From positions 1-64,000 of the forward strand of contig JAQGDQ010000186.1 of assembly GCA_030141605.1 (NCBI GenBank): DNA of 64,000 nt, read 5' to 3'. Both the position numbers and the translations under genes were made by a program. Positions 25,063-59,571 of this stretch are shown here, piece by piece (position 1 is the first letter of the stretch; each line of letters opens with the position of its first letter). The stretch is from Tubiluchus corallicola (Eukaryota; Priapulida; Priapulimorpha; Priapulimorphida; Tubiluchidae). The notes under the pieces are model-generated. The model saw nothing but the letters and a program-made list of their open reading frames with translations, did not search any database and had not been told where the DNA came from.

Positions 25063-28000
25063 TTAATTTATACGAAAACATTTTAACAACAGAATAAAAG
25101 TGGTTCTTTGAACATCTTGCACACATACTTTTTCTGAATTCCAGTTCCATCTTGAAACTAATTTACCAAGTTCTGATCCCGGGCAAGTAACGATTCCGTA
25201 AGTTTCTTTTATGCTAAAAATAACACAATATGCATTATGCTTTTTGTTTTAACCACGTTTTTATTTTGAAAGAGCAAGTCAAGGCTTTATTTTGTTTTAC
25301 TTAGTTTAAAACTGGCTTGTGACGAACAAAATACATGACAGTAATGTAAGGAGTCCGCAATCAAAACATAAAAGTTGCGAAGACTGCAGCGCTGGTAAAT
25401 GCAAAGAAAGTGGCAAGTAAAAAGGGTTTAATGGCTTAATAACACTGTTACAGAATTGCCAATGAAAAGTCTGTAAAAGATGACAAACCTGCATTTTAAG
25501 AGAGCTCTAACAGGTTGAGGTGGTCCTTTCATTTGAAGTGCTTGTACCATATTGAGTTGGAAGTTCGAGTCTAATCCAGTCACTGATATTTCAGACCTTA
25601 TATCATTTTTAACCAAAAAGGATCCTCTGCGGTAACTTGAACTCAAGTCATATGAACTGCTTGCAGAATTCAAGTTAAAATCACAGGACACATCCAGATC
25701 AGATAAAATACTTCCACAATAACTTGCCGGACTGGATGAAAACTTACTGCTGTCTCCACAGTGGAGATGCCTGTGAAATTTTGGGTGTGTGAAAGTGTTG
25801 GGCACACTATAGCATAAAGATGTGTCATAGTTTTCGACACAGACATTTGGATTAGGAAAATTTATCTTAGGCATAGCTATGCCATCAGTTACATTTTTTA
25901 CTTCCGATACAGCGTCATTATTTGTAAATGTGTCAGCCTTGTTGTCACTGGCTTCCACAGAAAAGTTATCACACAAATGTAAGCCAGAAGCCATGTCTTT
26001 TGACAATGTTATACTGCAGTTTAAAGCTGGAATGCTTTCTGATGTCTTCGAACAGAATCCTTCATTTGATTCTCTTGCAGCTATAAAAAAGAAGAATGTA
26101 AATGAAAAGGTGATTGACATAAGAAAAGTAGGCTGTCAAACTGGCAGACTTTTTGTGACTAAAAAAAAGAATATACAGCAGCTTCTGCCACATCTGTAGT
26201 CACATATATACCTTTTTCTAGGCACCTTAATTTTAGTATAAGTTAATATCATTATGGAATTAATAGAAAATAAGTGTACCTTTGTCACAGCTTGAAGAGA
26301 GATTATCGTCAAAGTTCTCAGTACAACAATGTTGCAGTGTATCTAAACTACTACTAAAATTTAAAGATTTCTGTACAAGTGATTCATGAAGTTTCTCGCT
26401 TTGGTAATCATAAGTATCTTGAATCTTGGCATCTCCATACGAATTGCAACGAGTTAATATTTCTTCATTGTAACAGTGAGTTAAATCACTTTCTGGTTTA
26501 GTATCACTATTTTGATTAGCAATTTGGTAATTTGCAGTTTTAACAGTACTTGGCATGCCAGCATTTTCTAATGGGCATTTTGAGGCATATTTAAATATAC
26601 CACATTCTTGATAGACGAGGTTACTGATAACTGTGTTGTCGAATTTGTCACTACCCAGAAAAAAATTCTCCTTTGGATTTTCTGTCTCGGTTAAAGTCTC
26701 TTCATTGTTACTGTTGGAATCAGAAAAGTGGCTATCTTGGTACAACAGAATGGGTTCATCAGACTGAAAGCCACTGTCGCGTTTTTCTTGTATTTGACAG
26801 ACAGCAGTGTATCTATGGTGCTGCTGTTGGTTTACTTCATTTGATAGTTCCATGTTAAGTTTTGCCGGCTTTAATTCATATAACGACTGGTTGTCTGTAT
26901 CTTCAGTTATATGATAGGTGAGAATGTCTCCAGAATAAGTTCCAATCACAACTTGGTCGAGGTCATCTGTAGCCAAGATGGCAGTTATCCAGCTCGGCTG
27001 TTGTTTTTCATATGCTTCATCCTAAAACACAATAGTGGAAACTTAACATTGAGCACTTTGCTAATATGATATTGCTCTCTAATACACTGTCCAATGTGGA
27101 ATATAGTATATGTAAGCATGTACCATTCTGAGAAATTATATGATGGTCCTTACAAATTAAACAAATTATTATTACATTGTTTTTGAACTATGATGTAATC
27201 ATCACCACCTTAGAAATGTTTTAGCATAATGAATTTGAATGATGTCAGTGTACTCAAAATTTTTTTTCTAATTTAAGCTACAAAATTTTGAAACAAGATC
27301 AGAGGATTCTCCAAATGCATCAGACTAATAACAGAGCAATAATGAAAATAAAGTAGCACAAATTTAGATGCCTTAGCATTTTGTGGTGAAGTATGAGAAA
27401 AAGTGAATTTTTAATTCTTTGTGTATTGCTGCATCAGTTTACACAACAAATTGTACAATCAAAAAGATAGAGAGAAAAAATGTTAATACATGTATGTATA
27501 TTACTAGGTCTACAATGCACGTTTAATTTTGTAGATACAGACTGAGATGTGTGGATTAAAGTACGTATTTAATTCATTCAAATGCACCTTAAAGTGCAAT
27601 TTAAAGTAAGTATAAGTATGTAACACAAAATCATGCAAGATGCATAAAATTCTGTCCCTTTGCAGTAATGCATTATTGAATACAATCTCTAGCTGTAATT
27701 CAGTTAAAATATGTTTATAAACTGTGCAACTTACAAAGCTATTCCACTGCCTAGTAACTTTCTTTCCCTCGTATATGTTGAATACCAGATTACATATTAG
27801 CAAGTCAACATCCCAGAGCATTAAGATAGGAGAAGCCTTTAAGCTGATCCAGATTCCGCTGTTGCTGTATTCCATACAACCGATCTGAATTCCAGGAGCG
27901 GAACTTACTTGAAAACTGCTCAAATGATCCAGAGACCTACACGCAAATTAAAAACAATGGTATTTTATTTAAAACCAACTATTTTTATATAGTTTAGCAC

Positions 28001-59571: not shown

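Follow-up and report, generated by a model that had tools for sequence, protein, structure and literature searches.

Known proteins of the TBC1D2 family end soon after the TBC domain. TBC and WD40 repeats do occur in one protein in the TBC1D31/WDR67 type, as in the protein described here, but there the repeats are of another kind and lie N-terminal to the TBC domain, whereas the propeller described here follows it. To our knowledge, little is known of the binding role of the propeller of ARHGEF10, ARHGEF17 and JIP3/JIP4. The PH domain of Armus (TBC1D2) is reported to bind PI(3)P and PI(4)P, Armus acts on Rab7 with R676 and Q713 as the residues with finger roles, and the worm protein TBC-2 has in vitro activity on Rab5 too (PMC6176412). 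A C-terminal WD40 propeller has been predicted for JIP3/JIP4 (UNC-16, Sunday driver; PMC12393467), and the TEM4 (ARHGEF17) propeller has been predicted to be seven-bladed (PMC3404065). Effectors of RAB-10 are said to include TBC-2/TBC1D2B as well as UNC-16/JIP3, with the RAB-10-binding fragment of the worm JIP described as its LZII part (PMC11891140). The gene analysed here has parts that are all known, and its combination of PH domain, coiled coil and TBC domain with a WD40_2 propeller is unusual. Among the papers listed on TBC1D2/Armus, JIP4, ARHGEF10 and TBC evolution, no title or abstract opening contained such an architecture; automatic annotations of it may exist.

The window, the stretch of DNA that was analysed, covers the initial 64 kb of contig C530 and contains 0 Ns. 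The gene is on the minus strand (59571-25063), begins with an ATG at 59571, stops with a TAA ending at 25063, and has 23 exons encoding 1357 amino acids (aa). Its two ends (25063 and 59571) were taken as hints from a preliminary description of this DNA, while the interior exons were picked from the sequence by reading the minus strand in three frames, listing splice sites for each candidate exon and reading the unclear joins. The preliminary description had claimed a 23-exon model with matching phase throughout, and the re-derived chain agreed with it in ends, exon count and phase at 22/22 junctions. The chain has a single stop codon, at its end, and none in-frame within the 1357 codons. Introns range from 174 to 13,031 bp, all GT-AG save intron 14 (GC-AG). 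The features are as follows.

59496..59571, minus strand: exon 1, start codon, aa 1-26
56588..56765, minus strand: exon 2, PH domain (aa 25-112, E 1.6e-6)
56102..56174, minus strand: exon 3, PH domain; exon 2/3 intron place and phase common with the TBC1D2-like gene on contig C246
55155..55228, minus strand: exon 4, end of PH domain and linker
54798..54887, minus strand: exon 5, linker
54381..54521, minus strand: exon 6, predicted coiled coil (by eye)
53433..53550, minus strand: exon 7, predicted coiled coil (by eye)
53160..53230, minus strand: exon 8, predicted coiled coil (by eye)
51244..51418, minus strand: exon 9, pre-TBC region with the motif ADEHGF (compare YDEYGF in the C246 gene)
48719..48871, minus strand: exon 10, start of TBC domain
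47876..47965, minus strand: exon 11, TBC domain with arginine finger IERDLCR (R398)
47544..47668, minus strand: exon 12, TBC domain with glutamine finger YCQ (Q435)
46687..46897, minus strand: exon 13, TBC domain
33476..33655, minus strand: exon 14, end of TBC domain; GC-AG intron next
32518..32725, minus strand: exon 15, TBC tail and linker; preceding intron place and phase common with the C246 gene
32475..32517, minus strand: possible alternative end in intron 15, with in-frame TAA at 32509-32507, ATTAAA from 32484 and AATAAA from 32480
32195..32280, minus strand: exon 16, propeller blade 1 (VWVCESS), first of 779 segments
31748..31848, minus strand: exon 17, propeller; weak donor
30073..30181, minus strand: exon 18, propeller
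29771..29898, minus strand: exon 19, propeller (WD40_2 match)
27735..27936, minus strand: exon 20, propeller (WD40_2 match)
26280..27021, minus strand: exon 21, one more blade (aa 864-903) followed by a long insert rich in Ser, Asn and Asp
25489..26080, minus strand: exon 22, insert and proposed start of the last blade
25063..25213, minus strand: exon 23, putative final strands and the stop codon; weak support

Exon 12 must use the donor at 47544, because the alternative GT at 47529 with the same acceptor would create a TAG at the join. The exon-15 donor was moderate (13% of GT sites score equally well) and the exon-17 donor was weak (65% of 2222 GT sites). A codon model trained on exons 1-15 versus introns gave exons 16-23 +0.13 bits/codon in frame compared with -0.18 and -0.46 out of frame, and intron windows -0.40 +/- 0.13 bits/codon with a highest value of -0.04 among 300. 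Exons 17-22 carried an in-frame coding signal. Exon 16 alone (-0.21) and exon 23 alone (-0.07) had no codon-model support of their own. Exon 23 is a weakly supported part of the model, as is the exon-17 donor. If exon 22 is read through, its frame closes with a stop codon at 25430-25428, and AATAAA occurs at 25291 and again at 25265 (window 25265-25430); this is possibly an alternative last exon without exon 23.

Domains. The spliced protein matched the Pfam profiles PH (aa 25-112, 29.0 bits, E 1.6e-6), RabGAP-TBC (aa 346-556, 172.6 bits, E 1.2e-50) and WD40_2 (aa 729-831, 41.2 bits, E 1.2e-10), all above the curated cut-offs of 25.1, 25.2 and 22.5 bits, respectively, so the profile search did not reject the propeller that had been proposed. 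Exon by exon on the window contig, the WD40_2 profile found nothing even at E up to 10, and only the spliced protein exceeded the cut-off. This weighs against the explanation proposed below, as does a VPS11 propeller model that competes with WD40_2 at aa 738-820 (24.4 bits, below its cut-off of 40). DUF4763 also had a weak, sub-cut-off match (aa 165-276). Among the nine Pfam families listed for the spliced protein at E up to 1 there was no RH1, LZII, RH2, JIP leucine zipper or RhoGEF (DH) domain. Both TBC catalytic fingers (IxxDxxR, YxQ) are kept, with R398 in IERDLCR and Q435 in YCQG, and the domain probably has Rab GAP activity. Against solved structures, the best match of the GAP half was 4p17 (E 4e-35), a RabGAP/TBC protein from Chlamydomonas, and no TBC1D2 chain was among the 16 matches listed. 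For the propeller, four solved structures came up at E up to 1; the best had E 0.011, and none was significant.

GAP half. As in TBC1D2/Armus and TBC1D2B (worm TBC-2), PH domain, coiled coil and TBC domain follow in that order and both fingers are present. The genome (343.5 Mb searched) also holds a separate gene on contig C246 with a PH domain, the YDEYGF motif and TBC exons, presumably the ordinary TBC1D2/2B judging by its motifs. In a comparison limited to five usable TBC sequences (C380 excluded), the TBC domain of the window gene was nearest to the C246 gene (40% identity across 256 aa and 200 bits, the runner-up scoring 132 bits). By eye, the two genes have two introns in common in place and phase, one in the PH domain (exon 2/3, FMI-R / FEI-K, phase 2) and one in the TBC tail (exon 14/15, VK|VAYEGFESF / VQ|MAFNDFNPF, phase 0). 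The other 4/5 TBC introns of the window gene and its exon 1/2 PH intron are not shared, and five C246 introns are without a counterpart in the window gene (by eye, for PH and TBC introns). Low identity, together with the introns that differ, points to an early separation of the two genes. Because the genome holds this separate TBC1D2-like gene, and because about 700 aa follow the TBC tail in the window protein, the most fitting reading of its GAP half is a diverged paralogue of TBC1D2, not TBC1D2 itself with an extra domain. The proposed TBC1D2-type identity therefore stands for the PH-coil-TBC half as an architecture, but not as an assignment to TBC1D2.

Unlike the window gene, the C246 gene showed no propeller motif in a scan to ~8 kb past its TBC tail, a scan that could miss a divergent or more distant propeller. 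As controls, the scan caught 2/8 propeller exons and two chance places in the window, with two chance places in 33.7-60 kb; it caught at least four true places (by eye) on each of C2308 and C859, and 0 in C246 52-82 kb. The exon 21-22 query matched only itself in the genome, giving no second copy of these exons. The propeller query, meant to reveal a second fused copy, had eight matches, seven on the window gene and one with in-frame stops.

Propeller half. The WD40_2 profile had eight matches in the genome, all on contigs C2308 and C859. The genes there both carry RhoGEF domains and are referred to here as ARHGEF10-like and ARHGEF17-like. A profile built from their two propeller sequences aligned with the window propeller at an hhalign E of 1.8e-10 over 152 columns. 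In pairwise comparison the window propeller scored 52 bits with ARHGEF17 and 46 bits with ARHGEF10 (25-27% identical), and lowest of the three with a provisional human JIP4 stretch (37 bits, 22% identical). The ARHGEF10, ARHGEF17 and JIP4 propellers (the last again the provisional stretch) are ~31% identical to each other. Because the window propeller is less like these three than they are to each other, it is, as judged by sequence, a more divergent branch of the ARHGEF10/17-type propellers and not specifically JIP4-like. Of the JIP4/ARHGEF10-type label in the preliminary description, the WD40_2 class was retained and the particular nearness to JIP4 was lost.

ARHGEF10 and ARHGEF17 (TEM4) carry the same class of propeller at the C-terminus, and the C2308 gene, like the window protein, has an insert before the last blade (by eye). 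They differ in having a RhoGEF domain, which was not found in the window protein, and in their introns: those of the window blades fall near, not at, the ARHGEF10/17 positions, and in different phases. These propeller introns, along with the TBC introns that mostly differ from TBC1D2, also count against the explanation proposed below. JIP3/JIP4 share the predicted C-terminal WD40 propeller, and the window blade 1 resembles blade 1 of this genome's own JIP gene, but JIP3/JIP4 have RH1, LZII and RH2 domains that were not found in the window protein. The JIP gene is on contig C1250 (19,578 bp), where LZII was found and which ends after blade 1 (by eye); no further exons of its propeller were found in the assembly. 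Its blade-1 piece matched no Pfam family at E up to 0.01, and the ARHGEF17-type blade-1 piece had no WD40_2 match (only the LRRK2 propeller, E 0.037). The exon 22-23 tail matched the ARHGEF10/17 tails no better than shuffled sequence (433 and 1807 of 2000 shuffles as good). The window propeller probably has seven blades, the last of them preceded by a long flexible insert, and would be a closed propeller.

The exon 15/16 join. Only 237 bp separate exons 15 and 16, which match in phase. A phase match at a single critical junction is a 1-in-3 test only; the small size of the intron and the resemblance to blade 1 carry more weight. Among 779 stop-free minus-strand segments compared with blade 1 of JIP and ARHGEF17, the exon-16 frame ranked first, narrowly (68, next 66 and 64). 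Shuffles scored as well as exon 16 in 31 of 2000 cases against JIP blade 1 and in 21 of 2000 against ARHGEF17 blade 1; the blade-1 test left out the ARHGEF10-type piece (1 of 2000 shuffles), as that piece begins at blade 2. Exon 15 itself contained no propeller sequence in the same kind of test (1771 and 1082 of 2000 shuffles as good).

The single-protein reading is favored because the 23-exon model is phase-consistent with three domains above cut-off, because the best blade-1 candidate lies in phase and so close to exon 15, and because the model has no JIP or RhoGEF N-terminal domain and exons 21-22 have no other copy. Arguing against it are the in-frame stop and poly(A)-like hexamers beyond the exon-15 donor, the narrow blade-1 lead, the missing codon support of exon 16, the weak exon-17 donor, and the non-significant match of the tail in exons 22-23. 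A single transcript spanning exons 15-16 is likely, and we are fairly confident that one gene makes at least some full-length protein. The claim that TBC domain and propeller belong to one protein thus survives as one continuous model, though phase, on which it had leaned, is weak by itself, and the single transcript is predicted from the 237-bp intron and blade 1.

The strongest competing explanation is that the gene has alternative ends, with a short PH-coil-TBC protein made by ending in intron 15 alongside the long protein, and the propeller serving as an optional regulatory module. The in-frame TAA that lies nine bases beyond exon 15, ATTAAA and AATAAA within 40 bases, and the moderate exon-15 donor are consistent with this, and the gene may also make a shorter isoform that stops within intron 15. 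Nevertheless, the minus strand of 24300-33500 holds 24 poly(A)-like hexamers, ~1 per 380 bp, which gives an accidental one within 40 bases a ~10% chance, and we regard alternative ends as unlikely. Less probable again is a pair of neighboring genes, the first TBC1D2-like and finishing around exon 15, the second encoding the propeller. A stop can close exon 15 and both halves occur apart elsewhere in the genome, but such a pair sits poorly with the closeness and phase of exons 15 and 16, with a blade-1-like exon directly next to exon 15, and with a model that offers the second gene neither a JIP nor a RhoGEF start; nor was any alternative N-terminal part seen that could begin a propeller gene.

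Proposed function. The best explanation, which we hold with reasonable confidence, is that one gene joins a Rab GAP and a docking propeller in one protein. The single gene would produce a 1357-aa Rab GTPase-activating protein. From the example of Armus/TBC1D2, its PH domain probably recruits it to endosomal membrane that carries phosphoinositides, and its coiled coil probably mediates dimerization and binding of another GTPase. The TBC domain, with both catalytic fingers, would promote Rab GTP hydrolysis, as motif and family predict. An endosomal Rab would be inactivated, by analogy with Armus, with the ARHGEF10/ARHGEF17/JIP-class propeller probably acting as a docking face that chooses the place or partner of the GAP. 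A diverged TBC1D2 paralogue would have gained, or kept, a propeller otherwise found on Rho GEFs and JIP scaffolds. The sequence itself shows the gene structure, the domain matches, the fingers and the paralogue relations within this genome, and from these we infer the single transcript, the closed propeller, the Rab target, the membrane and the partner; Rab10 is one candidate Rab because TBC-2/TBC1D2B has been named a RAB-10 effector (PMC11891140).

The preliminary description went further and suggested coupling of Rab inactivation to a motor scaffold, for which no support was found. Such a transport-scaffold fusion, with JIP-like motor coupling carried by the propeller, would draw on the broad propeller class common with JIP and on TBC-2/TBC1D2B and UNC-16/JIP3 being RAB-10 effectors alike (PMC11891140). 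The motor step lacks support, however, because the JIP coil and zipper domains were not found; the RH domains were not found either, the window propeller is not closest to JIP, and the worm JIP is reported to bind RAB-10 through its LZII fragment (PMC11891140), all of which make the fusion a rather remote prospect. Least credible is that an assembly error produced the join or that the gene is a decaying pseudogene, as the 300-nt perfect tandem duplicate in intron 19, the exon 12 fragment recurring on contig C1571 at 96.5% and the weak donor required by exon 12 might imply, given a window free of Ns, no in-frame stop across 1357 codons, an in-frame coding signal in exons 17-22 and intact catalytic fingers.

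If one transcript is confirmed for the Rab GAP with its docking propeller, the ARHGEF10/17 and JIP3/4 propeller would be present on a third class of GTPase regulator, and comparing partners across the three classes would test whether this propeller serves endosomal GTPase control as a shared address. If the reading is true, TBC1D2-type enzymes can bear their own docking module. We tentatively suggest, at somewhat less than even likelihood, that the gene represents an old unnamed animal Rab-GAP family, missing from vertebrates and the usual model animals, whose TBC1D2-type enzyme was combined with the propeller also borne by RhoGEFs and JIP scaffolds. Under the same old-family reading, and just as speculatively, a shared propeller partner might bring any of three proteins to a single membrane site: a Rho activator, an effector of Rab/Arf type, or a Rab inactivator.

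Other observations in the window. Intron 19 contains a 300-nt tandem repeat at 100% identity (28984-29283 and 29369-29668, 385 bp apart), which would be a duplication of very recent date or else an artefact of assembly. A copy of part of exon 12 with the next intron (window 47201-47599) lies on contig C1571 at 4833-5583 (173 bp at 96.5% and 232 bp at 80%), probably as a gene fragment. Intron 13 (13 kb) holds Fibrinogen_C exons on the opposite (plus) strand within 35848-44839, at 43070-43267 (E 4e-8) and 44312-44839 (E 1.6e-43), preceded by long, coiled-coil-looking open frames with no Pfam match. Ankyrin-repeat-like open frames (HYASRNGHLNVVDQLLSYGAS...), identified by eye at 9408-10790 on the minus strand, would belong to an unrelated neighboring gene.
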